From: Micromonospora sp. WMMD1102
Lineage (GTDB): Bacteria > Actinomycetota > Actinomycetes > Mycobacteriales > Micromonosporaceae
Assembly (NCBI RefSeq): GCF_029626265.1
Contig: NZ_JARUBN010000008.1
Span: 1-21,268, forward strand
DNA length: 21,268 nucleotides
Reading direction: 5' to 3'
Under the pieces are notes generated by a model. It was not told where the DNA came from and searched no databases. It saw nothing but the letters and a program-made list of their open reading frames with translations. Every line of letters starts with the position of its first letter. Positions within the stretch are counted from its first letter, which is position 1. Positions 1,275 through 20,379 of the stretch are shown piece by piece. The position numbers and the translations under genes were made by a program.

Positions 1275-1326
1275 CCGGTCGGCGGCCCCGCTTGATCGAT
1301 CGGGTTCGCTGGTTGCGTGCTTGTGT

Positions 1327-1362: not shown

Positions 1363-1550
1363 TCCCGGCCCCTACTCCGGGTCGAAACCGCCCACTGGGC
1401 AAGAAACCGGCAACCGCCGGGCTCTACCGCCACCGTGCTCCGTCGGTATAGTGACCCCGGTCTGCGACTCCGCTGCGGGCGGTCCGGCTCTCGTTGCTGG
1501 CGAGGCGGGCGGCGTGCTGTCCCTCGGGTCGGCGTCACCGACGATCACGA

Positions 1551-1589
1551 TTCGTCCGGCCGCGCCACGAGACGGCGCTGGCGGACGAA
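1551..1589 (+). promoter_or_regulatory. Strong leader hairpin upstream of the sugar transferase
   Basis: TTCGTCCG (1551-1558) pairs with CGGACGAA (1582-1589). Inside it, CC (1560-1561) pairs with GG (1580-1581) and GCGCC (1562-1566) with GGCGC (1574-1578). This gives 15 base pairs with two single-base bulges (G1559, T1579) and a 7-base loop. It lies about 100 bases before the start codon and could be an attenuator or a structured leader. Confidence 0.5.
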
Positions 1590-1637
1590 CCGGGATCGGG
1601 GCCGGCAGGGGAGAGACTGAGACGGTGGGCGACCCGA

Positions 1638-1657
1638 GCCCCTTACGGCAGAGGGGC
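1638..1657 (+). promoter_or_regulatory. Second leader hairpin before the sugar transferase
   Basis: GCCCCT (1638-1643) and AGGGGC (1652-1657) form a perfect 6-bp stem with an 8-base loop. It lies 14 bases upstream of the GGGAGG ribosome binding site (1672-1677), so it could affect access of ribosomes (inference). Confidence 0.4.
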
Positions 1658-1688
1658 GGCACGTGTCACGCGGGAGGACGTGGGTGAG

Positions 1689-3248: not shown

Positions 3249-3355
3249 CCGTACGTCCGGGCCGTAGCCGGACCCACGGGTCGGGCGGCGGGGGATTCCG
3301 GCCGGATCGTGGCTTGGCGAACCGGCCGACCAACCGTCAGGATCTCTGGGTGGGG

Positions 3356-4570
3356 ATGCCCGACCTGTCCACGGCGGTCGCCGTGGTGGCGATGATCAGT
3401 GCGCTGGCGGCTGCGCTGTTCGCCGTCGTGCGGCTGCGCGCCCGGCGGGGCATCGCCACCGCCACCCAGCGGGCCACCTACGACGTGCTGCACACCGCCG
3501 GGCTGGCCGCCGAGCCACTGCGGGCCGGGCTCACCCCGGCCGGTGCGGCCAAGGCGGTACGCCATCTGCGTACCCTGGTCGGCTCCGCCGGGCTCGCGCT
3601 GGCCGAGCCGGACCGGCTGCTCGCCATCGACGGGCGCGGCGGCCACCACGGCGAGCAGTTGCTGGCCGCCGCCGCCGGCACCATCCGGACCCGCCGGTCG
3701 ACGGTGCTCGGCGAGTCCGACCTGCGCTGCGACCGGGTCGACTGCCCGGTCCGGGGCGCCGTGATCGCCCCGCTGACCGGCCCGGACGGGCGGGCCGGGG
3801 CGGCGCTGGTGGCGATCGCCGACGACCAGCCGGCCCCCGGGCTGGTGCAGGCCGCCCTGGAAACCGCACACTGGGCCGGCGCCCAGCTCGCCCTCGCCGA
3901 ACTCGACTCGTCCCGGGAGCGGCTGGCCCGGGCCGAGGTGCGCGCCCTGCGCGCCCAGATCAGCCCACACTTCATCTACAACGCGCTGACCGCGATCGGC
4001 TCGTTCGTCCGGACCGACCCGGAGCGGGCCCGGGAACTGATCCTGGAGTTCGCCGAGTTCACCCGCTACTCCTTCCGGGCGCACGGCGAGTTCACCACGC
4101 TCGCCGAGGAACTGCGCTCGATCGACAGGTACCTGACGATCGAGCGGGCCCGGTTCGGCGACCGGCTCCAGGTGAAACTCCAGATCGCCCCGGAGGTGCT
4201 GCCGGTCAGCCTGCCGTTCCTCTGCCTGCAACCGCTCGTCGAGAACGCGGTCCGGCACGGGCTGTCCCGCAAGCCGGGGATGGGGATGCTCAGCATCGAG
4301 GCCCGGGACGCCGGGGCAGAGTGCCACATAACGGTCGAGGACGACGGGGTGGGGATGGACCCGGCGGTGCTGGTCGCCGGGATCGCCGACGCCGCCGCCG
4401 ACCCGGCCGACGACTCCGGCCAGCACGTCGGACTCTCCAACGTGGACGAACGACTCCGGTCGGTCTTCGGGGACCAGTTCGGCCTGGTCGTCGAGACCGA
4501 CCTCGGATCGGGTACGAAGGTGAGCATGCGGATACCGAAGTTCCACCGTCATGTCCGGGCGAGCGCGTGA
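3356..4570 (+). CDS. LytS/YehU-type sensor histidine kinase
   Basis: A 404-residue membrane-anchored kinase of the His_kinase (LytS) family. One hydrophobic N-terminal segment (about residues 4-25) is followed by a GAF-like region (about 60-180), then the H-box ISPHFIYNALTAIGSF with His205 as phospho-acceptor, and a HATPase domain with QPLVENAVRHGL and DDGVGMD, ending in a GLSNVDERL glycine box. It lacks the multi-spanning 5TM sensor of classic LytS, so it probably senses through the GAF-like region. The ATG at 3356 is used; GTG 3350 is a real alternative because AGGA lies 7 bases before it. The partner regulator begins 10 bases after the stop, so they form an operon. The signal is unknown. 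Confidence 0.9.
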   Translation: MPDLSTAVAVVAMISALAAALFAVVRLRARRGIATATQRATYDVLHTAGLAAEPLRAGLTPAGAAKAVRHLRTLVGSAGLALAEPDRLLAIDGRGGHHGEQLLAAAAGTIRTRRSTVLGESDLRCDRVDCPVRGAVIAPLTGPDGRAGAALVAIADDQPAPGLVQAALETAHWAGAQLALAELDSSRERLARAEVRALRAQISPHFIYNALTAIGSFVRTDPERARELILEFAEFTRYSFRAHGEFTTLAEELRSIDRYLTIERARFGDRLQVKLQIAPEVLPVSLPFLCLQPLVENAVRHGLSRKPGMGMLSIEARDAGAECHITVEDDGVGMDPAVLVAGIADAAADPADDSGQHVGLSNVDERLRSVFGDQFGLVVETDLGSGTKVSMRIPKFHRHVRASA

Positions 4571-4580
4571 GGGCTGAACC

Positions 4581-5336
4581 GTGACCGGTTTCCTGCGCGT
4601 GCTGGCCGTCGACGACGAGCCACCGGCGCTCGACGAGCTGGCGTACCACCTGCGGGCCGATCCACGGGTCTCCCGGCTGCACACCGCCGGAGACGCCACC
4701 GAGGCGCTGCGGGTGCTCCGGGACGCCGACGTCGACGTGGTCTTCCTGGACATCCGGATGCCGGGGCTGGACGGCATGGAGCTGGCCCGGGTACTCCGCC
4801 GGTTCGCCCGGCCACCCGCGATCGTCTTCGTCACCGCGTACGACGACGGCGCCGTCGACGCCTTCGACCTCGGCGCCACCGACTACGTCCGCAAACCGGT
4901 CCGGGCCGAACGACTCGCCGAGTCGCTGCGCCGGGTCGTCGGCTCCCGGGTGGTACCCGCCCATCCGGCGGCCCTGGCCCGGGCCGAACCCGACCCGACG
5001 ATCCCGGTCGAGCTGGCCGGCACCACCCGGATGCTGCCCCGCTCGGCCGTACGCTGGGTCGAGGCGCAGGGCGACTACGCCCGGCTGCACACCTCGGACG
5101 GGTCACACCTGGTCCGGGTGCCGCTGGCCACCCTCGCCGAACGCTGGGCCGACGCGGGATTCGTCCGGATCCACCGGTCGTACCTGGTGCAGCTCCGACT
5201 GATCGCCGAACTCCGGCTCGCCAACTCCGGGTACGTGGTGGTGATCGACGACTCCGAACTGCCGGTCAGTCGCCGGCACACCCGGGAACTGAAGGACAAG
5301 CTGGTCCGCGCCGCCAAGCAGGACTGGAACCGCTGA
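4581..5336 (+). CDS. LytTR-family response regulator
   Basis: A 251-residue regulator. The receiver domain (about residues 5-120) has the acidic pair D11/D12 in VLAVDDEPPAL, the phospho-acceptor D57 in VFLDIRMPG, T84-type FVTAYDD and the lysine of YVRKPV. The C-terminal LytTR DNA-binding domain (about 140-245) has RWVEAQGDYARLHT, FVRIHRSYLV and LPVSRRH, which are typical of the family. It starts with GTG 10 bases after the kinase stop, so the two are co-transcribed and very likely form a two-component system. The same kinase/regulator pairing is common in actinobacteria, often near transporter genes, but no transporter is seen here. Target genes are unknown. Confidence 0.93.
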   Translation: MTGFLRVLAVDDEPPALDELAYHLRADPRVSRLHTAGDATEALRVLRDADVDVVFLDIRMPGLDGMELARVLRRFARPPAIVFVTAYDDGAVDAFDLGATDYVRKPVRAERLAESLRRVVGSRVVPAHPAALARAEPDPTIPVELAGTTRMLPRSAVRWVEAQGDYARLHTSDGSHLVRVPLATLAERWADAGFVRIHRSYLVQLRLIAELRLANSGYVVVIDDSELPVSRRHTRELKDKLVRAAKQDWNR

Positions 5337-5361
5337 CGAGGTCGGCGGCGTCGGGCGTACC

Positions 5362-5393
5362 GCCGGTCAGAGGTGCTGCCGGTCAGGGGTGCT
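5362..5393. repeat. 16-bp tandem duplication at the convergent gene end
   Basis: GCCGGTCAGAGGTGCT (5362-5377) is followed directly by a copy with one mismatch (5378-5393). The second copy includes the stop codon of the sigma factor gene, so the duplication lies in the 46-base gap between two convergent genes and the end of one of them. No strong terminator stem is seen in that gap. Confidence 0.6.
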
Positions 5394-6642
5394 GCCGGGG
5401 GTCGAGTTCGGCGGCTCGTGCGGTGAGGTGGCGCCGCTCGGGCAGGCTGGCGGTGCGCCGGGCCGCCGCCCGGTAGCCGGCCGCCGCCCCGGCCCGGTCC
5501 CCGGAGAGTTCGGTCAGGTGGGCGCGGGTGGCGAGCAGCCGGTGGTGGGTCGCCATCCGCTTGTCCGCGGCGACGGTCTCCAACAGCTCCAGCCCGGCCG
5601 CCGGCCCGCGCACCATGGCGACCGCGACCGCCCGGTTCAGCGTCACCATCGGGTTCGCCGCGGTGAGCTGTTCGAGCAGCTCGTAGAGGGCGAGGATCTG
5701 CGGCCAGTCGGTCCTGTCGACGTGCTCGGCCTCGTCGTGCACCGCCGCGATCGCCGCCTGCACCTGGTAGGGCCCGACCGGCCCCCGGGGCAGCGTCTCG
5801 GTGATCAGCGCGACGCCCTCGGCGATCCGCTCCCGGTCCCAACTTCCCCGGTCCTGCTCGGCCAGCGGCACCAGGCTGCCGTCCGGCCGGGTCCTGGCCG
5901 GCCGCCGGGCGTCGGTGAGCAGCATCAGCGCGAGCAGCCCGGCCACCTCGGGATCCTCCGGCAGCAGCCGGTGCAGCCAGCGGGTGAGCCGGATCGCCTC
6001 GTCGGAGAGCCGCGGCGCGGTCAGCTCCGGCCCGGTCGTCGCGGTGTAGCCCTCGTTGAAGACCAGGTAGAGCACGTGCAGCACCGCGCCCAGCCGCTCG
6101 GCCCGGTCCGGCCCGTCCGGCGGCTCGAACGGCAGGCCGCTGCTCCGGATCATCTGCTTGGCCCGGCTGATCCGCTGCGCCATCGTCGCCTCCGGCACCA
6201 GGAAGGCGGCGGCGATCTGCCCGGTGGTCAGGCCGCCGACCGCGCGCAGCGTCAACGCGATCCGGCTGGCCTGCGACAGCGCCGGATGACAGCAGAGGAA
6301 GAGCAGGGTCAGCGAGTCGTCCCGCTCGGTGCCCGGGTCGGCGTCCGCCGGCCGGCCCAGCAACTCGGCCTGCGGGGTCGCCGCGAACACCGCGTCCTCC
6401 CGCCGCCGCCGGGACGCCTCGCTGCGGAACTCGTCCAGCAACCGGTGCACGGCGACCGTCACCAGCCAGCCCCGGGGATTGTCCGGAATCCCCTCGGCCG
6501 GCCAGCGCAGGGCGGCCCGGAGCAGCGCCTCCTGGGTGGCGTCCTCGGCCGCGTCGAACCGGCCGTACCGGCGGACGAGCGCGCCGAGGACCTGCGGCGC
6601 CAACTCGCGCAGCAGCTCCTCCACGGCCCGGTCGACGCTCAC
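5383..6642 (-). CDS. ECF sigma factor of the ECF42 type (C-terminal TPR extension)
   Basis: A 419-residue RNA polymerase sigma factor. The N-terminal sigma region 2 includes RYGRFDAAEDATQEALL and NPRGWLVTVAVHRLLDEF; region 4 includes RAVGGLTTGQIAAAFLVPE and the recognition helix before AQRISRAKQMIR. It is far longer than a standard ECF sigma factor: about 230 extra C-terminal residues are helical, with TPR-like signatures such as ALYELLEQLTAANPMVTLNR. This architecture and the neighbouring DGPF protein define the ECF42 group, where the C-terminal extension takes the place of an anti-sigma factor in controlling activity. GTG 6642 is chosen because family similarity starts there and it lies 25 bases after the upstream stop. 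It is the second gene of a two-gene operon. Confidence 0.93.
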   Translation of the reverse strand: MSVDRAVEELLRELAPQVLGALVRRYGRFDAAEDATQEALLRAALRWPAEGIPDNPRGWLVTVAVHRLLDEFRSEASRRRREDAVFAATPQAELLGRPADADPGTERDDSLTLLFLCCHPALSQASRIALTLRAVGGLTTGQIAAAFLVPEATMAQRISRAKQMIRSSGLPFEPPDGPDRAERLGAVLHVLYLVFNEGYTATTGPELTAPRLSDEAIRLTRWLHRLLPEDPEVAGLLALMLLTDARRPARTRPDGSLVPLAEQDRGSWDRERIAEGVALITETLPRGPVGPYQVQAAIAAVHDEAEHVDRTDWPQILALYELLEQLTAANPMVTLNRAVAVAMVRGPAAGLELLETVAADKRMATHHRLLATRAHLTELSGDRAGAAAGYRAAARRTASLPERRHLTARAAELDPRQHP

Positions 6643-6667
6643 CCGTGATCGACGTTCCCGTGCACGG

Positions 6668-7033
6668 TCAGGCCAGGTCTGCGGCGGACTCGTGCAGGAT
6701 CGGCCAGACCTCGACCGGTTCCTGGTCCGCCCAGGGCATGTCGGCGGCGATCTCGTACGCCCGCGCCTCGCTGTCGCAGTCGAGCAGGTAGAAGCTGGCG
6801 ATGTACTCCTTGGTCTCCAGGTACGGCCCGTCGGTGACGGCCGGGGCGCCACCCTCGCGCCGGACCAGCCGGGCCGCGGCGGCGTCGGCCAGCCCGTACC
6901 CGCCGAGCAGTTCACCGGTCTCGTGGTAGCGCCTGTTGAACGCGTCCTGCTTGGCGATCTCCTCCGGCCACGACTCCGCCGGGATCGAGTCCCACTTCTC
7001 CTGGTTGCCGTAGATCAGCAGCAGGTACTTCAT
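6668..7033 (-). CDS. DGPF/YCII-related domain protein
   Basis: A 121-residue single-domain protein of the YCII/DGPF family. It begins MKYLLLIYGNQEKW and carries the signature TDGPYLETKEYIASFYLLD in the middle; the family has a ferredoxin-like dimeric fold. Its biochemical role is unknown, but it is the characteristic genetic partner of ECF42 sigma factors and usually part of their regulon. GGAGG lies 7 bases before the ATG, which fixes the start. The sigma factor gene follows on the same strand after 25 bases. A promoter matching the ECF42 consensus lies about 60 bases upstream, so the pair is probably autoregulated. Confidence 0.9.
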   Translation of the reverse strand: MKYLLLIYGNQEKWDSIPAESWPEEIAKQDAFNRRYHETGELLGGYGLADAAAARLVRREGGAPAVTDGPYLETKEYIASFYLLDCDSEARAYEIAADMPWADQEPVEVWPILHESAADLA

Positions 7034-7091
7034 CTCGGATCCTCCGCCTCGCTCGTCCTGCCGTACCCGGTCGGCACGCCGTCACCCTACG

Positions 7092-7118
7092 GACGGAGCC
7101 GGCGCCGCGTCCTCGACA
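7092..7118 (-). promoter_or_regulatory. Predicted ECF42-dependent promoter
   Basis: On the minus strand TGTCGA (7118-7113) is followed after exactly 17 bases by CGTC (7095-7092). ECF42 sigma factors are known to use TGTCGA at -35 and CGTC or CGAC-like at -10. The site lies about 60 bases upstream of the DGPF gene, so the sigma factor should transcribe its own operon. Another TGTCGA at 7229-7224 has no -10 partner. Confidence 0.75.
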
Positions 7119-7237
7119 TCGCCGGCCAGCCACGATCGGCGGTGCGGTTGCCGGACGGTGCGACAATGCACTACTTCGCAGGGTGCGTGCCGCCGGACCT
7201 GCCGGCAGCCCGGCCGGGCGATATCGACATCAGCGCT

Positions 7238-7263
7238 CCGGCCGCGCCACGTGGCGCGGCCGG
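7238..7263. promoter_or_regulatory. Perfect 11-bp hairpin before the carboxypeptidase gene
   Basis: CCGGCCGCGCC (7238-7248) and its exact complement GGCGCGGCCGG (7253-7263) flank the loop ACGT. The stem lies 24 bases before the ATG at 7288, just ahead of the GGGGGA ribosome binding site. It may be a leader structure of that gene. The rest of this 254-base divergent gap holds the ECF42 promoter and a 12-base palindrome at 7208-7219. Confidence 0.5.
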
Positions 7264-7287
7264 CGTACCACACGGGGGATCTGACCG

Positions 7288-8589
7288 ATGCTCGACGCCG
7301 AGACGACCCAGGTACTCGAACCTGTGCCGCCACCGTCACCGCCACCAGCGCCGAAGCGGAGTCGCGCCCGCGGCTACTGGCTGCTGGCCATCGGGATGCT
7401 GATCGTGCTGCTGGCCGGTGCCACGCTCTACGCGATCGCGCCGCTGCGCACCCCGCTGCCCACGGCGGCCGTCACGCGTACCCTGCCGGAGGCGACGAGG
7501 ATTCCCGGCAAGGCGCCGGTGGTGCCGTGGCCAAGGACCGGGCAGGCCGCGCTCTCGGTCGAGGGGGTCGGCTCGTTCGGCACCTCCGGCGGGAACGAGC
7601 CGGTGCCGATCGCCAGCGTGACCAAGGTGATGACCGCGTACGTCATCCTCACCGAGCACCCGCTCGACCGGGGCGAGCACGGGCCGAAGCTGACGGTCAG
7701 CGCGGCACAGGCCGCCGCGTACCCGGCGGAGCTGGCCCGGGGCGAGTCCCTGGTGCCGGTCGTCGCGGGCGCGGTCTTCACCGAACGCCAGGCGCTCCAG
7801 GCGGTGCTGCTGCCGTCGGCGAACAACATGGCCCGGATCCTCGCCGCCTGGGACGCCGGCAGCGTCGAGGCGTTCGTCGAGAAGATGAACGACACCGCCG
7901 ACGCGCTCGGGATGAAGGACACCCGCTACACCGACCCGTCCGGGCTCGACCCGGGCACCGTGAGCACCGCCGTCGACCAGGTGATCCTGGCCCGCAAGGC
8001 GATGGAACTGCCGGCGTTCGCGGAGATCGTCGCGCAGAAGAAGGCCACCCTGCCGGTCGCCGGCGAGGTGAAGAACTACAACTCGCTGGTCGGCCGGGAC
8101 GGCGTGGTGGGGATCAAGACCGGCTCCACCGACGAGGCCGGCGGCTGTCTCGTCTTCGCCGCCGTCACCAGGGTCGGCGGTCGGAAGATCACCATCGTCG
8201 GTGCCGTGCTCGGCCAGCCCGGCGCGAACACCCCGGTGCAGCTCGACCGGGTCTTCAAGGCGACCCGCCCGCTGGTCCGGACCGCCGCCGCCGCGCTCAC
8301 CGTGCATCCGGTCGTCAAGGTCGGCGACCAGGTCGCCACCGTGCAGGGCCCGCTCGGCACCGGCACCACGATCCACGCCGGGAAGGAGCTGTCCGTGGTC
8401 GGCTGGCCCGGCATGCGGGTACGGCTGGACGTCGACATCCCGGCCGTACCGGACCGGCTTGCGGCGGAGACCGAACACGGCTCGATCACCGCGGTCGCCG
8501 GCCACGGTGCGCCGGTCACCGGCACACTCCGCTCCGGGGTACGCCTCGAACCGCCGAGCGACTGGGACCGGATCCGGCAGCACCGCTGA
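7288..8589 (+). CDS. D-alanyl-D-alanine carboxypeptidase (PBP5-like, peptidase S11)
   Basis: A 433-residue membrane-anchored peptidoglycan carboxypeptidase that trims the terminal D-Ala of stem peptides. A short proline-rich cytoplasmic tail (residues 1-28) precedes one membrane segment (about 31-50, YWLLAIGMLIVLLAGATLYA), so the enzyme faces outside. The serine penicillin-binding motifs are all present in order: SVTK with S110 and K113, SANN at 177-180, and KTGS at 277-280. A C-terminal region rich in beta strands follows. GGGGGA upstream of the ATG supports the start. It is transcribed alone, diverging from the DGPF/sigma operon and ending at a strong terminator. Low-molecular-weight PBP is certain; carboxypeptidase against endopeptidase activity is inferred. 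Confidence 0.92.
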   Translation: MLDAETTQVLEPVPPPSPPPAPKRSRARGYWLLAIGMLIVLLAGATLYAIAPLRTPLPTAAVTRTLPEATRIPGKAPVVPWPRTGQAALSVEGVGSFGTSGGNEPVPIASVTKVMTAYVILTEHPLDRGEHGPKLTVSAAQAAAYPAELARGESLVPVVAGAVFTERQALQAVLLPSANNMARILAAWDAGSVEAFVEKMNDTADALGMKDTRYTDPSGLDPGTVSTAVDQVILARKAMELPAFAEIVAQKKATLPVAGEVKNYNSLVGRDGVVGIKTGSTDEAGGCLVFAAVTRVGGRKITIVGAVLGQPGANTPVQLDRVFKATRPLVRTAAAALTVHPVVKVGDQVATVQGPLGTGTTIHAGKELSVVGWPGMRVRLDVDIPAVPDRLAAETEHGSITAVAGHGAPVTGTLRSGVRLEPPSDWDRIRQHR

Positions 8590-10369: not shown

Positions 10370-10858
10370 GTGGCTTCGAAGGTCGACGATCGGATTCAGA
10401 AAGCACTGCGTCGCGGTGCCTCTTCGTTGAATCTTGCTGAGCTTGAATTGGCGTTCCTGCCCGAGACGCTGGGCAACCTCACCAACCTCACCGAGCTCCA
10501 CCTGTACGACAACGAGCTCACCGCGCTGCCCGACACACTGGGCAACCTCACCAACCTCACCAACCTCTACCTGGCCCACAACCAGCTCACCGCGCTGCCC
10601 GACACACTGGGCAACCTCACCAACCTCACCAAGCTCCACCTGACCAGCAACCAGCTCACCGCGCTGCCCGACACACTGGGCAACCTCACCAACCTCACCA
10701 AGCTCCACCTGACCAGCAACCAGCTCACCGCGCTGCCCGACACACTGGGCAACCTCACCAACCTCACCGGGCTCTACCTGCACGGCAACCAGCTCACCGC
10801 GCTGCCCGGCGCCCTAGGCAACCTCACCGACCTCAGCGATCAGCTCCCCTGGTTCTGA
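10370..10858 (+). CDS. Short leucine-rich-repeat protein
   Basis: A 162-residue protein. A charged N-terminus (VASKVDDRIQKALRRG) is followed by five to six leucine-rich repeats of 23 residues with the pattern LPDTLGNLTNLTxLxLxxNQLTA, ending abruptly in DLSDQLPWF. The repeats should form a curved solenoid for protein binding. There is no signal peptide or membrane segment, so it is cytoplasmic. GGAGG 8 bases before the GTG at 10370 fixes the start. Bacterial LRR proteins of this type are often longer or fused to signalling domains; the missing C-terminal cap and the adjacent debris suggest a shortened relative. Partner and function are unknown. Confidence 0.8.
   Translation: MASKVDDRIQKALRRGASSLNLAELELAFLPETLGNLTNLTELHLYDNELTALPDTLGNLTNLTNLYLAHNQLTALPDTLGNLTNLTKLHLTSNQLTALPDTLGNLTNLTKLHLTSNQLTALPDTLGNLTNLTGLYLHGNQLTALPGALGNLTDLSDQLPWF
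10457..10837 (+). repeat. 69-bp tandem DNA repeats within the LRR gene
   Basis: Units start at 10457, 10526, 10595, 10664 and 10733, with a partial sixth at 10802. Units three and four (10595-10663 and 10664-10732) are identical at every base, including synonymous sites, so the array has expanded recently. In-frame units of 69 bases allow the protein to gain or lose one repeat without a frameshift. Confidence 0.92.
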
Positions 10859-11824: not shown

Positions 11825-11871
11825 TGGCCCGTGGATGGCCCAAAGCATGATCGCGGCTCGGAGCATATCAG

Positions 11872-11957
11872 AGGCCCTGGCTGGGACTGATGTCCTGACC
11901 AGGGCCTTTCGGTTGGAGCGGGTGACGGGAATCGAACCCGCACTGTCAGCTTGGGAA
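11872..11957 (-). repeat. att-like direct repeat, copy 1 (tRNA-Gly 3' half plus terminator)
   Basis: An 86-bp block that recurs almost unchanged at 14719-14805. It contains a tRNA-Gly(CCC) 3' half (11914-11957, minus) and its downstream hairpin, AGGCCCTGG (11872-11880) with CCAGGGCCT (11899-11907). Identity ends exactly at the anticodon loop, the usual crossover place of tyrosine recombinases that use tRNA genes. It is interpreted as the left end of an integrated element. Confidence 0.8.
11914..11957 (-). pseudogene. tRNA-Gly(CCC) 3' fragment, copy 1
   Basis: The minus strand reads from the anticodon loop TTCCCAA through GCTGA, the T arm (GCGGGTTCGATTCCCGT), the acceptor strand CACCCGC, discriminator T and an encoded CCA. 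The 5' half (acceptor strand, D arm, anticodon 5' stem) is absent; the next bases do not pair with GCTGA. It is not a functional tRNA. Confidence 0.85.
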
Positions 11958-12055
11958 GTGTCGAAGGTAGGCCGCCTGACCAACTGGCGCCCTGGTCACG
12001 GCGATCATCTAGCGGCCCCGGACGGCCTCCGCTGTCCTGGCCCAATGGCACGTTA

Positions 12056-12274
12056 ATGGCACGCCGTCGACATGAGCGCTTGGTCGACCTCACGCGCGAG
12101 GCGTGGAAGTCGATAGCCATCGGTGCTGGCGTCGCTTTGCGGATACCAGTTGATCTTATCCATGGGGTTTCCTCGGCTGCCGTTACAGCGCAGCCTCCTC
12201 AGCTCGGTTCACCTGTATCAATAGTCATGCGGGCCATCAAAGGCGAGTATCGGCCCGACCTATCCACCCAACAG
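12056..12274 (+). pseudogene. Small gene interrupted by the IS (first part; resumes at 13652-13687)
   Basis: From the ATG at 12056 the frame reads MARRRHERLVDLTREAWKSI through a hydrophobic stretch (AIGAGVALRIPVDLI) to STQQ at 12274, where the IS begins. If the IS and one copy of the 9-bp target duplication are removed, the frame continues as PVAARTLRYLP and stops at 13685-13687, giving 84 residues. Codon use is less GC-biased than in the core genes. No family is recognised, and an open frame of this size could be chance. In the present arrangement the frame runs into the IS and stops at 12349. Confidence 0.4.
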
Positions 12275-13642
12275 CAGGGCTATTGCGTGTTTGGTCGAGT
12301 GGCCGTTGAACTGGGGATTCCCGGGGTGGGCGGACCCTTGCGGGGTTGAGGAAGGCGGGTGAGGCCTGTAGGTGATCATGGAGTTCTCGACGCTCCCGGA
12401 CACCTTGAGGACCTCACCCGCGATGTCAGCATGCCCGATTCAGGTACTGTCCGCAGTTCGCACCCCCACCGACTCGCCACCGCGCCTTGTCACCGAGGGT
12501 GAAGAAGCTGGGCTCCAGCACTCGTTGGCCACCATCGCGGACCCCCGGTCCCCGCGTGGGGCGCGTTACCCGCTCGTCGGGCTACTGACCGTCGCGGTGT
12601 GCGCCGTGACCGCCGGCGCATCATCGTTCGCGGCCATCGCGGACTGGCTGCACGACCTCGATGACCTCGCCAGGGCCCGGCTCGGGTTCATCCGCGCCGT
12701 CCCGGCCGCGACCACGATCTGGCGGCTGCTGACCAGGTTGGACGCTGACCTGCTGGCCACCGTGCTCGCCGACTGGCTGCGTACCCGCGTCCCGCCTCCG
12801 GTCACGCCCCGACCTCGGCGGTACCGGATCGTCATCGCCATCGACGGCAAGACCATGCGCGGCGCCCGCCGCGCCGATGGCAGCCGGGTCCACCTGCTGT
12901 CCGCGCTGGACACCAGCACCGGCATCGTGCTCGCTCAGGTCACCGTGGCCGCGAAAAGCAACGAAATCCCCGCGTTCACCCCACTGCTGGACGCGGTCGA
13001 ACAGGTTCTGGGTAGCCTGGACGGCCTCATCTTCGTGGCCGACGCCCTCCATACACAGACCAGCCACGCGACCGAGGTCGCCGCTCGCGGCGCCGACCTG
13101 CTCATCCCGGTCAAAGGTAACCAGCCGACCGTGTTTGCCCAGCTCAAGGCCTTGCCCTGGGCCCAGGTCCCGGTGGGTGACCGACGCCGCGAAACCGGTC
13201 ACGGCCGGCGGGAGACCCGCACGGTCAAGGCGCTCACCGTAGCCACCCCCGGCGGTCTGCTGTTCCCTCACGCCGAGCAGGCCGTCCGGATCACCCGCAC
13301 CCGCACCCTCAAGGGCAAGACCACCAGGGAAACCGCCTACTACACCATCTCCCTCCCCGCCGAGCACGCCCAACCCGCGGACCTGCAGTCCTGGGCCCGA
13401 AACGAGTGGCTGATCGAGAATCAGGTCCATCATGTCCGCGACGTCACGTTCCGTGAAGACCTCCACCAAGCCAGAACCGGCACCGGCCCCGCAATCATGG
13501 CGACGCTACGTAACACCGCGGCCAGTTACCACCGCACCAACGGCGATACCAACATCGCCCGCGCCACCAGACGCGCCGACCGTCGCCCGCACGACCTCAT
13601 CACTGCAATGACCAGCAGCTACCCCAGAACGCAATGACCCTG
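12275..13642 (+). mobile_element. Intact ISAs1-family insertion sequence
   Basis: A complete 1368-bp element. The left end CAGGGCTATTGCGT (12275) is matched in inverted form by the right end (CAGGGTCATTGCGTT read on the minus strand from 13642). It is flanked by a perfect 9-bp target duplication, ACCCAACAG, at 12266-12274 and 13643-13651, within the 8-10 bp expected for the family. It carries one intact transposase whose stop codon lies inside the right end. Perfect duplications and an open frame indicate recent insertion. Confidence 0.93.
12378..13637 (+). CDS. ISAs1-family transposase
   Basis: A DDE transposase of about 419 residues that moves the surrounding IS. An N-terminal DUF4338/DDE_Tnp_1-associated region (HSLATIADPRSPRGARYPLV) precedes the catalytic domain with the first aspartate in IAIDGKTMRGARR, the second in FVADALHTQTSH, and the glutamate in WLIENQVHHVRDVTFREDLH. 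The end, MATLRNTAASYHRTNG, matches the fragment at 11310-11690. The ATG at 12378 is two codons after an in-frame GTG; neither has a good ribosome binding site. The stop lies in the right terminal repeat. Length is within the usual range (about 370-430), and no frameshift is seen. Confidence 0.94.
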   Translation: MEFSTLPDTLRTSPAMSACPIQVLSAVRTPTDSPPRLVTEGEEAGLQHSLATIADPRSPRGARYPLVGLLTVAVCAVTAGASSFAAIADWLHDLDDLARARLGFIRAVPAATTIWRLLTRLDADLLATVLADWLRTRVPPPVTPRPRRYRIVIAIDGKTMRGARRADGSRVHLLSALDTSTGIVLAQVTVAAKSNEIPAFTPLLDAVEQVLGSLDGLIFVADALHTQTSHATEVAARGADLLIPVKGNQPTVFAQLKALPWAQVPVGDRRRETGHGRRETRTVKALTVATPGGLLFPHAEQAVRITRTRTLKGKTTRETAYYTISLPAEHAQPADLQSWARNEWLIENQVHHVRDVTFREDLHQARTGTGPAIMATLRNTAASYHRTNGDTNIARATRRADRRPHDLITAMTSSYPRTQ

Positions 13643-13715
13643 ACCCAACAGCCAGTAGCGGCCAGAACACTGAGATATCTACCCTAAGCCTCTCGCGAGA
13701 TTCACGGTGGTGACG

Positions 13716-14718: not shown

Positions 14719-14805
14719 AGGCCCTGGCTGGGACTGATGTCCTGACCAGGGCCTTCGTTGTTGGAGCGGGTGACGGGAATCGAACCCGCACTGTCAGCTT
14801 GGGAA
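14719..14805 (-). repeat. att-like direct repeat, copy 2 (tRNA-Gly 3' half plus terminator)
   Basis: An 87-bp near-copy of 11872-11957 with differences only in the short spacer between the hairpin and tRNA end. The hairpin AAGGCCCTGG (14718-14727) and CCAGGGCCTT (14746-14755) is a perfect 10-bp stem here. It has the same orientation as copy 1 and again stops at the anticodon loop, so it marks the junction of two elements inserted in tandem at one tRNA gene. Confidence 0.8.
14762..14805 (-). pseudogene. tRNA-Gly(CCC) 3' fragment, copy 2
   Basis: Identical to copy 1 over all 44 bases from the anticodon loop to the encoded CCA. The bases upstream on the minus strand (GCGAG before TTCCCAA) cannot pair with GCTGA, so there is no complete cloverleaf. 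It is a scar, not a working tRNA. Confidence 0.85.
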
Positions 14806-15875: not shown

Positions 15876-17144
15876 GTGTCAGCGCAGACGAAGGGCGAGA
15901 CGGCGAACCAAGCACCGCTCTTCCAGGTTGATGCCGCTTCCTCCGTTCCCGGCAAGACATCACTGTCTCCAAAGCGGCCACGGGTCGAGAAGTCCGGACT
16001 TGCAGATATCTTCCCCTACTATGCTGGCTTTTCCTTTGAGTGGGCCTGCCGGGAACTAAGAAGACACCCGATTCGAGTCGAAGAGCCAATCCTAGACCCA
16101 TGGAACGGAAGCGGGACGACTACGCTAGCAGCACGTCTTATAGGGCTGGCGTCGGTAGGGGTTGATCGAAATCCGGTAGCGAATGTTGTCGCGCAGCTTC
16201 GGCTAAGATCGGGAGCCGTTAGTATCTCTGAGGGTGATTCGCCTCCCGGCAGCAGAGACTTAGATCCCTCCGACCCTTTGCTCTCATGGTTCGAGTCGGA
16301 GACTGCCTCAAGGCTTCGGGATTGGACGCGGTATTCAGAATCACTGCCACAATCTCAGTCCGCTTTAACCTACGTGTCACTCTTCAACGTAGTACGCGCC
16401 CTCACTGGCAGTTTCCAGGGGTCAAACCCGACTTGGATTCGCAGAACGGGGCCAAACCGGCCAAGAGTAGCTGTACCACTGGACGTGCTAGATGGGCTCG
16501 TCCGTAACGAGCGATCGCGAATCGCGGATCGGTTACCACAACGAGTAGATGCATCGGGGCCCGTAGTGCTCGCCACAGGCTCGTCTCGCAGCCTCCCGCT
16601 GTCCGATAGCTGTGTGGGGAGAGTATTGACTTCGCCACCGTATCTAACCCGGATTGACTACGCGATCGCCTACGCAAGGGAATTTGCACTGGTAGGAGTA
16701 AACGTTTTTGAGGATAGGGAGATTCGGTCCGAACTCATGGGCACTACCCTCATACGAACTAATACGCCCGACAGCCTACCGCTCGGTACAGTCGCATCCA
16801 GCCTGCTCGAGCAGATTAGCGCACACGCTAGCCGAGCATCGAACGGCTACTACCTCAAGCAAGCCCGCCAGTACTTCGACGACCTCACGTGCAGCCTCGA
16901 TGAGATATCGCGGGTTTGTGTTGCCGGTGCAATAATGACGCTCGTAGTGCAAGATTCCTACTATAAAGAGTTACCCATCCACTTGGGGGCAATCTGCAAA
17001 GAGGAGGCGGAGCGTCGTGGTTGGGATCTAGTTGAGGAAGTACCATTTGAGGTCAACAGATCGCTCGTTTCTTTAAACAAATCCGCGCGCCAATATCAGA
17101 AAGGGCCGGTGTCAGAAACAGTGGTAACGCTGCGGAAGCAGTAA
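15876..17144 (+). CDS. Amino-methyltransferase for DNA (N4-cytosine or N6-adenine type)
   Basis: A 422-residue S-adenosylmethionine-dependent DNA methylase. Motif I, DPWNGSGTTT (residues 74-83), binds the cofactor, with the acidic residue in GLASVGVDRNPVAN after it. Motif IV, TSPPY (252-256), is the catalytic loop of exocyclic-amino methylases. The order I then IV and the roughly 170 residues between them, which may hold target recognition, exclude the common beta class. The C-terminus ends KSARQYQKGPVSETVVTLRK. AGGA 5 bases before the GTG supports the start. GC is visibly lower than in the core genes, with TTA at codons 220 and 366. Its context with DUF262 and HEPN genes suggests a self-marking role in defence. 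No restriction nuclease with a known fold is adjacent. Confidence 0.88.
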   Translation: MSAQTKGETANQAPLFQVDAASSVPGKTSLSPKRPRVEKSGLADIFPYYAGFSFEWACRELRRHPIRVEEPILDPWNGSGTTTLAARLIGLASVGVDRNPVANVVAQLRLRSGAVSISEGDSPPGSRDLDPSDPLLSWFESETASRLRDWTRYSESLPQSQSALTYVSLFNVVRALTGSFQGSNPTWIRRTGPNRPRVAVPLDVLDGLVRNERSRIADRLPQRVDASGPVVLATGSSRSLPLSDSCVGRVLTSPPYLTRIDYAIAYAREFALVGVNVFEDREIRSELMGTTLIRTNTPDSLPLGTVASSLLEQISAHASRASNGYYLKQARQYFDDLTCSLDEISRVCVAGAIMTLVVQDSYYKELPIHLGAICKEEAERRGWDLVEEVPFEVNRSLVSLNKSARQYQKGPVSETVVTLRKQ

Positions 17145-17267
17145 TAGACCTAACCAGCCGCTGACGACACACCGTACCTGATGGTGCTTTGGCAGTCGAC
17201 GTCCTACTCCGCCTTCTAACCTCACGGGCTATACCGCGCAACAGCCACGTCTGGTAGAACATGAACT
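17145..17267. promoter_or_regulatory. Intergenic region before the DUF262 gene
   Basis: The 123 bases between the methylase stop and the DUF262 ATG are long enough for a separate promoter. TATACC near 17230 and TTCTAA near 17214 are candidate -10 boxes. No Shine-Dalgarno precedes the ATG. Whether the sensor/effector pair is expressed independently of the methylase cannot be settled by eye. Confidence 0.3.
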
Positions 17268-18320
17268 ATGGCGATCGACCACTCGGTCCTACAAGCGGAG
17301 CTTGCAGAGCACCGGCAAGCAGTTGACGTGGACTTCTTCGACCTATCCTTACGGGAGCTGGCCAGGATGGTTGAGGAGAGGGAGGTCCGGATTGCGCCAG
17401 AGTTCCAGCGGCAATTCCGCTGGAATGATCAATTGCAGTCTGCGCTGGTTGAGTCCTTTTTGCTTGGGTTGCCCGTCCCAGCAATCTTCGTAGCCACGAA
17501 TGGTGATGGGACTTGGGAGGTTGTCGATGGCTTACAAAGGATTTGCACTCTCCTGAGATTCATGGCCATTGACGCGCCCGAGTCCGACCTTCTGCACTTC
17601 TCGCAACGGCCGCTTCGATTGACCGGACTTAAGACTCTCGAGGGTTTTCAAGGCGTATCGTACGAAGATCTTCCCCGCCCCATAAAGCTCATGTTTGAGC
17701 GCCGCTATCTTCGTATCCAAGTGCTGAGTGACAAATCAGACTTGGACGTGCGATTTGAGCTGTTCCGTCGTCTAAACCAAGGAGCAGTGGAGCTATCCGG
17801 GCAGGAAGTCAGGGCGTGCGTATATCGAGGTACACTGAATACTTTAGTCGAAAATTTGGCCGAATACGAGCCGTACACGAGACTGCTCAAGCTCAAAGAA
17901 GTCGACAAGAGGAATGGAACTGCAGCAGAGATGGTTCTCAAATTCTTCGCGTATCTCGATGACGTGGAAAGCTTCCAAGGAAGTGTCACGGGCTTTCTAA
18001 ACGAATACATGAAGAAGCATACTAATATCACCGACACCGAGGCACGGCGACAGGAGTTCCACAAGTGCGTTGATTTCTTGGGAGCCATCGTCAACGGGCC
18101 GTTCCTCCGATCAGGAACCAAGGTAACACCGCTTAACCACCTTGAAGCAGTACTCGTGGGGATCGCTCGCGTATTCAGGGCGGGAAAGGTGCCGATACGG
18201 CCGGAGGGCGACTGGCTCAACGACCCAGAGATGTTGGAGTTCGTCAGAACGGGCACCAATGCAAGAAGAAGCGTGATCGGCCGCGTGAATCGCGCAGAAG
18301 AACTCTTTAGCCCAAGATGA
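17268..18320 (+). CDS. DUF262 (GmrS/ParB-like fold) protein
   Basis: A 350-residue protein of the DUF262 family, whose members bind and hydrolyse nucleotides and act in defence systems such as GmrSD and SspE. The N-terminal core is intact: PEFQRQFRW (residues 44-52), the helix ALVESFLLGLPVPAIF, and the signature VVDGLQR (D87-G88-L89-Q90-R91; usual form DGQQR). RRLNQGAVELSGQEVRACVY follows, the typical continuation of this family. No DUF1524 HNH nuclease domain is present, so the protein probably depends on a partner for cleavage. Its stop overlaps the HEPN start by four bases (ATGA), showing tight coupling. TTA codons occur at 28, 89 (inside the signature) and elsewhere. GC is low for the host. 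Confidence 0.87.
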   Translation: MAIDHSVLQAELAEHRQAVDVDFFDLSLRELARMVEEREVRIAPEFQRQFRWNDQLQSALVESFLLGLPVPAIFVATNGDGTWEVVDGLQRICTLLRFMAIDAPESDLLHFSQRPLRLTGLKTLEGFQGVSYEDLPRPIKLMFERRYLRIQVLSDKSDLDVRFELFRRLNQGAVELSGQEVRACVYRGTLNTLVENLAEYEPYTRLLKLKEVDKRNGTAAEMVLKFFAYLDDVESFQGSVTGFLNEYMKKHTNITDTEARRQEFHKCVDFLGAIVNGPFLRSGTKVTPLNHLEAVLVGIARVFRAGKVPIRPEGDWLNDPEMLEFVRTGTNARRSVIGRVNRAEELFSPR

Positions 18321-19021
18321 CCTACGCGATAGAGACTATCTTCGAAGAGGCGTCACGGCTGATCGCTCGCGAAGATCGGCGACTACAGGCTCTAGACCAA
18401 GCCCGAGTGAATCTCATCCAGGACCAATTTGATGCCGACGGTGTTGCGGCGATGAATCGTGCACTCACGTTTGTCGTCTGCGCAGGGATTCTAGAGCAGT
18501 TGATGAGGGACCTCCCCGCAGCGCTTTCGTCCGATCTCTGCGCCCTGCGAGTCCCGCGTAAGCGACTTCCGATGGGTTTGCTCGCAATTCTTGAAGCCGT
18601 CGAGTTTAGGCGTTGTGCGGAACAAAACGTAGCATCATTCTCGTCTCGAGCAAAGTTGCTCCGAAGCATCTCGCTTCACTCGGGCGACGAGAGGTTGATC
18701 AGCGACTTCTCTGACGATCTCAAACTCGCCGACGGAAAGACAGTCAACGAGAGGCAGTTCTCTGCGCTATGGGAATTACTTGATCTTCCGGGGGAATGGC
18801 GCAACGACCCGAAGGATCTACTTCTCCTCAAGGAGATACAGGCAAAGCGGAACTCCATTGCACACTGGGAGCAAGATCCCGTTGCAGTTGGTCGCATGAA
18901 GACCTATGTCCAGTTACGCGAGACAACACGGTCGCTGGGCCTACTTCTTGACCATGTCCAGCTACATCTCTGCGACTGGCTTGATAAGATGGCTCGTCTG
19001 CAATTATTGTCAACCCCCTGA
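18317..19021 (+). CDS. HEPN-domain protein (MAE_28990-like), putative RNase
   Basis: A 234-residue, all-helical protein. Its C-terminal third has KEIQAKRNSIAHWEQDP with the HEPN catalytic signature RNxxxH (R178-N179 to H183), the RNase active site of HEPN toxins. The N-terminal helices (FEEASRLIAREDRRLQALDQ) and the length fit the MAE_28990/MAE_18760-like HEPN group, which was predicted from comparative genomics to sit beside DUF262 genes; I recall this association and could not check it here. The ATG overlaps the DUF262 stop by four bases, so the two are translated together. TTA codons occur at 154 and 230. It is the likely effector of the module. Alternative: a HEPN antitoxin or scaffold without activity. 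Confidence 0.75.
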   Translation: MTYAIETIFEEASRLIAREDRRLQALDQARVNLIQDQFDADGVAAMNRALTFVVCAGILEQLMRDLPAALSSDLCALRVPRKRLPMGLLAILEAVEFRRCAEQNVASFSSRAKLLRSISLHSGDERLISDFSDDLKLADGKTVNERQFSALWELLDLPGEWRNDPKDLLLLKEIQAKRNSIAHWEQDPVAVGRMKTYVQLRETTRSLGLLLDHVQLHLCDWLDKMARLQLLSTP

Positions 19022-19045: not shown

Positions 19046-19813
19046 TTAGGCGTAGATCTCGTATTCCAGCTCGGTTCTATCGGCAGAAAACGCCATTTCA
19101 CAAGCAACTTCAACAACTCTTACATCCGCCATCGTTCGGCGGGTTACGGCGATGATCGGTGCCCCCGGCGGTAATCGGAGTGCGTCAGCCTCCTCACCCG
19201 TAGGCATACGTGTCCGCACAAGCTCTTGAATCTTGGTCACGATAACGCCAAGGAGCCGTAGCTGCGCAACGTGTCCGCCAGGCCAAGGTTCGCGGCTAGG
19301 GTCAAATACCGTAGTGCCGGCGACCATATCGAGCAAATAGTAAGATGTGGTCAGCTGTTGGGGTACAGCGTGAGCGCTGGTGAGTAGACGGCGCTCCAGC
19401 AGCATCCTTCCGGGTTCGACGCCGAACAGTTGAGCAAGTTTAGGAGTGGCGGGTATCTCCTGGTGCTGCGCGTCGACCTGGTCGTCTTTGTCGACTCCGC
19501 TCGTGGTGGCCAACTGACCGGGCAGAGCTACGTCATGGGTCTTTATCTGGTAACGGTCGTACGCAAGTCGCCGTACAGGGAGGTCGGGGCGGGCGTAGGT
19601 GCCTCGGCCGTGTTCGGTCACGACCAGGCCCTCACTGCGGATCACGTTGATGGCTTCGCGGATAGTCCCGCGAGCGACGTGGAACTCGGCCGTTAGCGCG
19701 CTCTCGGAGGGGATGAGGGCACCAGCTGGTATGGCGCCTGCGGCGATGCGGCGTCGGAGTTCGTCGGCGATGGCGCGGTACCGGGGTTGTCTGTGCGGGG
19801 TTGGCACGGGCAT
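19046..19813 (-). CDS. GntR-family regulator, HutC subfamily
   Basis: A 255-residue repressor. The N-terminal winged helix-turn-helix (residues 8-75) includes RYRAIADELRRRIAAGAIPA, IPSESALTAEFHVARGTIRE and LVVTEHGRGTYARP. The C-terminal UTRA ligand domain (about 95-250) contains RMLLERRLLTSAH and GEEADALRLPPGAPIIAVTR. Such KorSA/TraR-type regulators control transfer and replication genes on actinomycete integrative elements. The ATG at 19813 is preceded by AGGTACGGTG; an upstream GTG at 19816 is adjacent. The gene converges on the HEPN gene with only 24 bases between stops. A promoter with an imperfect palindrome lies upstream, fitting autorepression. Upstream open frame to 20233 is not family-like. 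Confidence 0.92.
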   Translation of the reverse strand: MPVPTPHRQPRYRAIADELRRRIAAGAIPAGALIPSESALTAEFHVARGTIREAINVIRSEGLVVTEHGRGTYARPDLPVRRLAYDRYQIKTHDVALPGQLATTSGVDKDDQVDAQHQEIPATPKLAQLFGVEPGRMLLERRLLTSAHAVPQQLTTSYYLLDMVAGTTVFDPSREPWPGGHVAQLRLLGVIVTKIQELVRTRMPTGEEADALRLPPGAPIIAVTRRTMADVRVVEVACEMAFSADRTELEYEIYA

Positions 19814-19846
19814 CACCGTACCTGTCTGCCGTGTTCTCGGCAGCCA

Positions 19847-19874
19847 TCCATAGCCTTCATGGATGTATAGACAA
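19847..19874 (-). promoter_or_regulatory. Predicted GntR promoter with operator-like palindrome
   Basis: On the minus strand TTGTCT (19874-19869) and TATGGA (19852-19847) are separated by 16 bases, a plausible -35/-10 pair. The imperfect palindrome TGTATAGACA (19864-19873; TGT-N-TA-N-ACA) overlaps the -35. HutC-type regulators bind sites of this type, so this is a candidate self-operator. Confidence 0.5.
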
Positions 19875-20073
19875 GCTGCCTGGTTGTAGGTACCTTTCTG
19901 ATGTGCGGTCGGGGTAGCTGGTCTGGCAAGGGGTTGGCATGCCGTCACCTCGGCCGCGCATCCAAAGTGCATTGCCGCGCCGAGCAGTGGTTCGACGCGA
20001 TCCCGCGTGTGCCTGAGCTGGGCACGGCGATACCCGACGCCGCTCTCCGGGCGGTGCGCCGTGCCGTCATCGG

Positions 20074-20116
20074 GCCGGTGGCCGGTCCAGCCTCCGCCAG
20101 GAAGCCGGCCACCGGC
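20074..20116 (+). promoter_or_regulatory. Perfect 12-bp inverted repeat before the small-gene operon
   Basis: GCCGGTGGCCGG (20074-20085) is exactly complementary to CCGGCCACCGGC (20105-20116), with a 19-base loop. It ends 17 bases before the AAGGAGG ribosome binding site (20134-20140). The loop contains CCTCC (20091-20095), which could pair with that site. It may be a terminator, attenuator or translational switch. The rest of 19875-20145 shows no supported gene. Confidence 0.5.
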
Positions 20117-20145
20117 TCTCTCAATCACCCTGCAAGGAGGTCGTG

Positions 20146-20379
20146 ATGCGCCGTGTTCGCTTACCTGTCTGGCTCGCGTTCTGGCGGTCGCCTGGGCGCC
20201 ACAGTCGACGGCCAAGGTCGGCGCCGTCCACACGCCGAGTCGTGGCCTACGCGACTCCTCGGCCCGCTGTGCCGTCCTGGGCTACGGCTCGAACGCGTGA
20301 GTACGTCTGTTGGCGGGATGTGCCGCTGTTGACGCTCGGGCAGGAGTTCCGGGGACGTGGCGGGAGGTGGTCCCGGTGA
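20146..20379 (+). CDS. Small basic protein, first gene of a mobile-element operon
   Basis: A 77-residue protein starting MRRVRLPVWLAFWRSPGRHS and ending TLGQEFRGRGGRWSR. AAGGAGG five bases before the ATG is the strongest ribosome binding site in the window, supporting a real gene; GTG 20143 is a minor alternative. It is very rich in arginine, with a short hydrophobic patch near the N-terminus. Its TGA overlaps the next GTG (GTGA). I recall similar short genes beside GntR regulators on Streptomyces and Micromonospora elements, but assign no function. Confidence 0.55.
   Translation: MRRVRLPVWLAFWRSPGRHSRRPRSAPSTRRVVAYATPRPAVPSWATARTREYVCWRDVPLLTLGQEFRGRGGRWSR

Follow-up and report, generated by a model that had tools for sequence, protein, structure and literature searches.

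A stretch of 21,268 nucleotides from Micromonospora sp. WMMD1102 (the window) carries adjacent genes for a DNA methyltransferase (MTase), a DUF262 protein and a HEPN protein. As judged from sequence, these form a candidate defence operon against phages and other mobile genetic elements, and probably act jointly against viruses. The core of the operon is the DUF262–HEPN pair, a widespread two-gene unit. The operon has a low GC content and travels on an AICE of the pSAM2 type that is integrated at a tRNA-Gly gene. The best reading that we can offer is restriction-modification logic with an RNase in place of the DNase, in which RNA cleavage would be gated by methylation.

The three genes and their products

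All three open reading frames are intact (Table 1), with 422 residues and a GTG start for the MTase, 350 residues for the DUF262 protein and 234 for the HEPN protein. A previous sequence-only reading of the window had assigned the three families correctly, and each motif that it named (DPWNGSGTT, TSPPY, DGLQR and RNxxxH) was located. Its statement that DUF262 and HEPN share four bases agrees with the coordinates (the overlap is ATGA), as does its remark on composition with the GC content, which is 0.53–0.56 over positions 16001–19000 against 0.70–0.76 over 1–8000. The MTase and DUF262 genes are separated in the window by 123 bp, so that a single transcript for the trio is not assured; a promoter and terminator scan of the locus gave nothing above chance.

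Table 1 Features of the operon and its surroundings in the window
Feature	Position	Strand	Basis
Repeat of the 3' end of tRNA-Gly, probably the AICE's far attachment site	14742..14805	.	Repeat comparison
MTase (DNA methyltransferase) gene; motif IV follows motif I; TSPPY present	15876..17144	+	ORF, Pfam, motifs
DUF262 (GmrSD_N, ParB/Srx-fold) protein without DUF1524	17268..18320	+	Pfam, PADLOC, alignment, predicted fold
HEPN protein, probably acting as RNase effector (E60, R178, N179, H183)	18317..19021	+	Pfam, alignments, predicted fold
GntR/UTRA regulator belonging to the AICE, transcribed towards HEPN and bounding the cargo on the right	19046..20233	-	ORF, Pfam

In the MTase, DPWNGSGTT occupies residues 74–82 and TSPPY residues 252–256; the mark it makes is predicted to be, probably, N4-methylcytosine. 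Solved structures align to it around motif I only. Its Pfam N6_N4_Mtase score lies below threshold (E 1.3e-5, 25.7 bits against a cut-off of 26.7), as does that of the HEPN protein for HEPN_RiboL-PSP, PF18735 (E 0.0096, 16.3 bits against 28.4), and the family calls for these two proteins therefore rest on their relatives; PF01555 is precomputed for the best 120 of 1133 MTase relatives.

The DUF262 protein matches PF03235 (DUF262/GmrSD_N) with E 8.8e-22. Pfam finds no DUF1524 in any of the three proteins at E up to 1, in keeping with the earlier description of a DUF262 protein lacking this nuclease domain. DGLQR lies at residues 87–91, and D87, G88, Q90 and R91 are invariant across 54 aligned DUF262 proteins. 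The predicted fold (mean pLDDT 90.7) has BrxU and SspE as its best structural matches. PADLOC places NsnA, which we take to be the DUF262 protein of Menshen, first (E 1.9e-59); PD-T4-2_A also matches (E 3.1e-48, residues 29–347 of 350), and so does the REase_II model (E 8.7e-10). The PHROGs assignment is phrog_2598 (9.4e-85), a family without function.

The Rx4H site of the HEPN protein, RNSIAH, lies at residues 178–183, and an alignment of 14 close relatives, the window protein among them, keeps R178, N179 and H183 in all 14. In a wider alignment of 48 chosen proteins (that of the window and 47 from the 78 loci with HEPN), the only invariant columns are E60 and these three residues; L038, where HEPN is broken into two ORFs, and L045, where the pattern used finds no R-x4-6-H motif, were left out. 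The predicted fold (mean pLDDT 94.8) is all-helical and of HEPN type, and the best aligned solved structures are HEPN toxins, though Foldseek alone gave no identification; both predicted folds agree with the assigned families. PF18737, the MAE_28990 HEPN model, has no match in the window HEPN; it matches 7 of the 14 close relatives (E up to 10) and 41 of the 48 in the wider set (E up to 0.01). No PD-T4-2_B match is listed for the window protein at E up to 10, where HMMER filters drop most matches above 0.1, and one of the 14 close relatives has such a match (E 5.3e-4). A weak match to phrog_3846 leads to another family without function.

The element that carries the operon

ARAGORN finds no tRNA gene within the window. 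A second copy of the region has tRNA-Gly(CCC) at C1:7685423-7685496, about 9.4 kb past the window's right end, and a 64-bp piece overlapping its 3' end is repeated at the probable far attachment site (Table 1) and, less perfectly, at 11895-11958. Because integrase, RepSA (PF20199, E 9.4e-73, the match stopping at position 311 of 438), FtsK-type and GntR genes sit between the tRNA-Gly gene and the repeat copies, we identify the island as an AICE. Every hallmark of the pSAM2 type is present, namely a tyrosine integrase by a tRNA gene, RepSA, an FtsK-type transfer gene and att repeats. The island had correctly been called tRNA-targeted, though the tRNA-Gly gene itself is outside the window.

Distribution of the pair and of the trio

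HEPN lies immediately downstream of DUF262 in 78 of 80 genome loci; of the other two, L069 stops at a contig end and L029 has no HEPN. The pair is rare in the family (4 of 354 genomes at E 1e-60). This threshold missed the divergent DUF262 of genome G106, and its pair came to light only through the neighbouring MTase; the background therefore holds at least as many pairs as were counted. A class sample of 394 genomes added one further pair, without MTase (G688).

Most pairs have no such MTase beside them. A strong A4-family match adjoins the pair in 1 of the 80 genome loci, with four weaker ones; N6_N4_Mtase occurs in 4 of 56 upstream neighbours, and the A4 family in none of 49 viral loci anchored on a profile of the window DUF262's relatives, six of which have less than 700 bases upstream. 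Even a related AICE (L102), which shares its backbone with the window element, has the pair without this MTase. The trio is therefore not universal in the family, and absent methylation cannot be the general trigger of the pair.

The picture differs when the MTase is the anchor. The three MTase-bearing genomes among the 354 (the window's own, G277 and G106) all have MTase, DUF262 and HEPN in that order, as do 6 of 9 MTase-anchored loci on viral contigs, two of them identical. Of 11 matching plasmid records, three are from Roseomonas mucosa and have, to judge by their coordinates, a neighbouring DUF262 gene; the one inspected is annotated as methyltransferase, DUF262 and MAE_28990 HEPN. A profile built from seven trio members of another DUF262 lineage (lineage B) recovered the trio in 9 of 9 viral loci, six of these contigs being already known through their MTase. 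There is thus one DUF262 lineage with an MTase in every locus sampled, that is, in the nine viral contigs, the Roseomonas plasmid and G106, on which this constancy rests. Its MTases are down to 31% identical to each other, and the gene order is the same in all. Other MTases stand directly upstream of the pair in L051, L082 and L085; in L089 (Paraburkholderia) such a gene is the second one upstream. At least 9 of 57 other DUF262 relatives (P0016–P0072, at least 54% identity) share a genome with an MTase among the best 120 of 1133, as judged by equal longest-contig size, which indicates co-occurrence and not adjacency. The MTase is found without the pair in L112 and in G421, the latter being the one further MTase in the class sample.

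The two anchored surveys rule out chance adjacency of the trio. The linkage that the sequence-only reading had proposed to look for does recur, in order and in distant hosts, although for most pairs it does not hold. The constancy of the MTase in one lineage, the MTase-anchored trio, the combination in G106 and the other MTases found at this position elsewhere make it probable that the MTase has a working role in the system.

The combination in G106 suggests, from sequence comparison, that a window-type MTase has been joined to the other DUF262–HEPN lineage by partner exchange. Against the window group, its MTase is 49–52% identical and its DUF262 30–32%; subtracting the MTase identity from that of DUF262 gives -18 to -20 for the three pairs with G106 and -9 to +22 for the 42 others. 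In a quick DUF262 tree, G106 groups with lineage B (SH-aLRT 99; placement in the window group is rejected by the AU test, p 1e-4), as it does in the HEPN tree (support 98), whereas careful trees of the MTase group it with relatives of the window protein (99/98 and 100/98). An AU test on the MTase, run twice, did not reject a tree congruent with that of DUF262 (p 0.53). A topological proof was accordingly abandoned, and exchange, for which the case rests on distances and support values, is claimed as likely only.

Relation to known systems

By sequence, the window DUF262–HEPN pair is a distant relative of PD-T4-2, with which it shares the two-gene core and the DUF262 match. PD-T4-2 consists of DUF262 and a PF18735 HEPN in the account of PMC10952713, and its experimental test in E. 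coli is reported by Vassallo et al. 2022 (PMC9519451). It differs in that the window HEPN has no PD-T4-2_B match and in that the descriptions, in the excerpts available, name no methylase. The arrangement of all three genes appears in a table of Anantharaman et al. 2013 (PMC3710099), where MAE_28990 HEPN genes are operonic with those for a ParB nuclease (the DUF262 type) and a DNA methylase, an entry that carries neither a test nor a mechanism. RefSeq names the HEPN of trio loci, and of pair loci, after this family; the window HEPN itself scores, weakly, with PF18735 and not with the MAE_28990 model. We found no experimental account of the trio in the open-licence PMC literature, though one may exist elsewhere, and excerpts of the C. 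jejuni methylome and GmrSD phylogenomics papers do not mention HEPN. The view that the exact trio had no experimental description needs the qualification that the arrangement had been tabulated in 2013 and the PD-T4-2 pair tested.

GmrSD, BrxU, SspE and GrwAB share with the window a DUF262 protein with D-G-[LQ]-Q-R; unlike them, the trio has no DUF1524 nuclease, has HEPN in the effector's place and includes an MTase. In GrwAB (PMC12137116) and in the GmrS1/GmrSD2 pair of ECOR17, DUF262 proteins are paired with DUF1524 or HNH nuclease domains. Menshen is like the trio in its NsnA, but no NsnB or NsnC is listed for the window DUF262 or HEPN, nor for the MTase among the best 25 of its 35 matches. 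Type II restriction-modification likewise has an MTase with a linked partner, and PADLOC MTase_II matches the window MTase (E 4.7e-21); in the operon, however, Pfam recognises no restriction endonuclease, and the REase_II model falls on DUF262.

Proposed mechanism and alternatives

For the AICE cargo as an operon against phages and mobile elements, we regard the following division into mark, sensor and effector as evenly balanced between right and wrong. The MTase would mark resident DNA at a specific site. The DUF262 protein, of ParB/Srx fold and presumed to bind NTP as in GmrSD, BrxU and SspE, would survey DNA for the absent mark; on unmarked DNA it would switch its nucleotide state, presumably by NTP hydrolysis, and then release or activate the translationally coupled HEPN protein, which would cut RNA through its Rx4H site and so stop the infected cell. 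We put forward more tentatively, at somewhat below even, the fuller proposal of a restriction-modification system whose effector cuts RNA. In it, a DUF262 NTPase would read methylation and license or restrain the HEPN RNase, leading to abortive infection, and the system would have formed, or been reshuffled, on more than one occasion from exchangeable MTase and DUF262–HEPN modules.

The pairs that lack this MTase, that of L102 among them, and the MTases of L112 and G421, which have no pair beside them, would also be expected if the PD-T4-2-like pair acted alone, the MTase being an accessory (in anti-restriction for the element, for example, or tuning) and not a self-mark. We think this rather unlikely, given that lineage B keeps its MTase in 9 of 9 loci despite the low identities, with the same order everywhere, and that unlike MTases occupy the same slot. 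A type IV logic, in which DUF262 would respond to phage DNA that carries modifications, like its counterparts in GmrSD, BrxU and GrwAB, with HEPN replacing DUF1524 and the sensor ignoring the operon's own mark, would fit the structural matches to BrxU and SspE and the modification dependence of GrwAB described in PMC12137116; it is improbable, since it leaves unexplained why a methyltransferase is retained beside a modification sensor.

It is very improbable that DUF262 serves as the restriction enzyme and cuts the DNA, nicking by its ParB/Srx fold, with HEPN as a backup suicide RNase. The REase_II match, a distant MTase relative that adjoins an HNH endonuclease and the ParB/Srx nicking cited in PMC12839542 point that way, but Pfam finds neither DUF1524 nor another nuclease domain, and HEPN following DUF262 in 78 of 80 loci goes beyond the needs of a backup. 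The 4-bp overlap and carriage on AICE, plasmids and phages are consistent with a toxin–antitoxin pair that maintains the element, with HEPN neutralised by DUF262 and no sensing of phage; we give this hardly any weight, as the invariant DUF262 residues exceed what a bare antitoxin needs and PD-T4-2 is reported to protect its native strain against T4 (PMC9519451).

The preferred reading remains that of methylation-gated RNA cleavage. Restriction-modification as it is taught combines a methyl mark with a DNase. If the trio works as proposed, discrimination by a mark would drive an RNase, linking restriction-modification with abortive-infection immunity. Some DUF262–HEPN pairs have an MTase and others do not, and both kinds are found in related AICEs, so that the family provides a natural comparison of sensor triggers, which bears on the trigger of DUF262 systems without DUF1524, a question left open in the part of a 2023 review that treats them.

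The three genes and their families

The three genes of the module are consecutive and on the same strand, each an intact ORF (see the table). All of the motifs named in the sequence-only reading were found in their products. The DUF262 protein matches PF03235 (E 8.8e-22), and this assignment is firm. In the window proteins themselves the methyltransferase (MTase) and the HEPN protein lie just or well below Pfam's cut-offs, and their assignments therefore rest on relatives: PF01555 is precomputed for at least 120 MTase relatives among the matches listed, and a chosen set of 48 HEPN proteins from DUF262–HEPN loci gives matches with E 0.01 or better to PF18735 in 47 cases and to PF18737 (MAE_28990) in 41. 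The TSPPY motif, a mark of N4-cytosine methyltransferases, suggests that the MTase is such an enzyme; a few of its relatives, among the matches listed, bear names that break off at '(cyto'.

Coordinates of the module genes, the insertion sequence and MTases of another type found in three genome loci
Feature	Location	Strand	Remarks
MTase	window 15876-17144	+	intact ORF, motifs
DUF262 protein	window 17268-18320	+	intact ORF, PF03235
HEPN protein	window 18317-19021	+	intact ORF, start overlaps DUF262 stop by four bases
ISAs1-family IS	window 12276-13642		transposase ORF 12372-13637, NF033564 E 1.9e-61
Other-type MTase	L051 239-1036		directly upstream of DUF262-HEPN
Other-type MTase	L082 5165-6004		directly upstream of DUF262-HEPN
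Other-type MTase	L085 5197-5994		directly upstream of DUF262-HEPN

DUF262 and HEPN form a widespread pair

A DUF262 profile search of the genomes of 85,000 species gave a sample of 80 loci, the best of at least 354 confirmed relatives, and in 78 of the 80 a HEPN gene directly follows DUF262. The other two are L069, which stops at a contig end, and L029, which has none; the 78 include a HEPN split over two ORFs (L038) and one with no RN-type motif under the pattern used (L045). By record title the hosts are actinobacteria, proteobacteria, cyanobacteria, Bacteroidota, Bacillota and a Methanosarcina MAG. The window's own host family is probably Micromonosporaceae, to judge by close matches named Micromonospora musae and Catellatospora and by the Dactylosporangium name on an MTase identical to that of genome G106. 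At a mean identity of 25%, the 48 chosen HEPN proteins have only E60, R178, N179 and H183 as invariant columns, and the same four are invariant with 61 rows aligned. Across ten trios the DUF262 and HEPN identities correlate with a Spearman coefficient of 0.86; the correlation with MTase identity is lower (0.55 for DUF262 and 0.57 for HEPN).

The window-type MTase is clear in one of the 80 loci, that of Streptomyces olivochromogenes (L012), where it lies directly upstream (E 1.4e-188). Four weaker matches (E 1e-7 to 1e-4) occur in L023, where the gene is on the opposite strand, and in L051, L082 and L085, whose records are by title Peptostreptococcaceae, Campylobacteraceae and Campylobacter jejuni, respectively. 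The last three have a small MTase of another kind, 265–279 aa in length. Among the 56 nearest upstream neighbours scanned, N6_N4_Mtase was found in four, and other families of restriction type in a few: Eco57I, MmeI_Mtase and HSDR_N_2 in two each and BsuBI_PstI_RE in one. In the P2-like phage Peduovirus P24B2 (L087), DUF262 and a HEPN-size gene that follows it lie close to one end of the genome, and the other strand bears a phage DNA methyltransferase; a PADLOC search for HEPN in the second gene gave no hit.

Searches anchored on the methyltransferase

Taking the MTase as anchor keeps DUF262 out of the search criteria. The MTase was found in three of 354 genomes of the host family, one being the window's own, and all three have the order MTase–DUF262–HEPN. 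Among 394 genomes drawn evenly from the class it occurs in two, the window's own and G421, in which no DUF262–HEPN pair follows. Six of nine viral contigs hold trios, two of them identical; L112 has the MTase without the pair and L114 stops too early. Viral locus L111 (2046-5064) has the MTase, a divergent DUF262 with DGQQR and a 216-aa third protein with RHFYAH that the HEPN profile missed; it is possibly a third trio lineage with a HEPN outside the profile's reach. Eleven plasmid records match the MTase. In three, from Roseomonas mucosa, DUF262 is adjacent by coordinates, and the one examined is annotated as the full trio. Two of the eight more distant plasmid matches were examined; both MTases adjoin another MTase, one with an HNH endonuclease and one with an AAA ATPase.

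Two lineages and a likely exchange of partners

The DUF262 proteins of the trios fall into two groups, A (the window, G277 and L012) and B (genome G106, Roseomonas and viral contigs). A viral search anchored on group B gave nine loci, all trios; seven trio members supplied the profile, the MTase search had already turned up six of the contigs, and the loci are partly redundant (L123 and L124 identical, L121 and L122 alike in lengths and motifs). One of them, L128, has an MTase without the DPWNG pattern and the HEPN motif RHAVAH. When the anchor was the profile made from relatives of the window, 49 viral loci were obtained at a best identity of 41%, with HEPN adjoining DUF262 in 33 and a window-type MTase in none, six having less than 700 bases upstream. 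As far as sampled, the MTase is thus constant in group B, patchy in group A and rare elsewhere.

The G106 MTase, which over 419 columns has the same sequence as an MTase under the name Dactylosporangium, is 49–52% identical to group A MTases. The DUF262 protein of G106 is only 30–32% identical to group A and about 49% to group B. When MTase identity is subtracted from DUF262 identity, the three comparisons of G106 with group A give −18 to −20 and the other 42 give −9 to +22. Tree support values agree with an exchange, but an AU test on the MTase did not reject a congruent tree (p 0.53). Judged from these sequences, a module exchange between the MTase and DUF262–HEPN lineages in G106 is likely.

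The mobile element

The window takes up all of contig C8 (21,268 bases) in a host genome of 8.9 Mb, whose 8.67-Mb contig C1 holds a copy of the window region identical save for one ISAs1 insertion; the IS has a 10-bp target duplication on either side (12266-12275 and 13643-13652). Since the IS is missing from this otherwise identical copy, C8 appears to represent a variant of the sequenced culture that carries the insertion. On C1 one end of the element is formed by a tRNA-Gly(CCC) gene, after which come genes for an integrase, the replication initiator RepSA, an FtsK-type protein and GntR regulators: the element bearing the trio is an AICE of the pSAM2 type. A copy of the tRNA 3' end at window 14742-14805 marks its probable other end, and so places the trio between this end and a GntR gene. 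A second copy of the att-side repeat (11865-11957, 95% identical), 2.8 kb to the left, is perhaps a remnant of an older tandem element. For the RepSA ORF of the AICE (L004 9220-10716), the family match stops at position 311 of 438 and leaves out the C-terminal part, so the gene may be interrupted. A leucine-rich-repeat protein gene at window 10370-10858 has 69-bp in-frame direct repeats.

Genome G195 has AICE backbone DNA in common with the window (three stretches of 0.6–1.6 kb, 72–81% identity) and a DUF262–HEPN pair without the MTase; from this the cargo looks interchangeable. The AICE at locus L102 (5593-7789) shares backbone DNA with that of the window and has GntR, DUF262 and HEPN abutting and no MTase, which looks like a swappable cargo slot.

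Proposed mechanism and relation to known systems

The MTase would mark self DNA, DUF262 would read DNA and HEPN would cut RNA. DUF262 proteins (GmrSD, BrxU, SspE) are described as controlling a nuclease with NTPs (PMC10952713), and RNase activity is attributed to most HEPN toxin domains (PMC3710099). In group B and in that of the window, a sensor that attacks unmarked DNA would have gained the MTase. The role of the mark is the weak step, because most pairs lack a linked MTase and the passages on PD-T4-2, a DUF262 and HEPN system protecting E. coli against T4, in PMC9519451 and PMC10952713 name no methylase. In pairs without a linked MTase the trigger must be something other than missing methylation. 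The chances of the full mechanism are roughly balanced; those of a defence operon with a role for each of the three genes are better.

The trio is not categorically new: the arrangement is already in a 2013 table (PMC3710099), and a relative of its two-gene core has been tested by experiment. As far as open PMC papers go, the new points are a lineage with a constant MTase, its distribution across viral contigs, one plasmid and an AICE, and a probable module swap.
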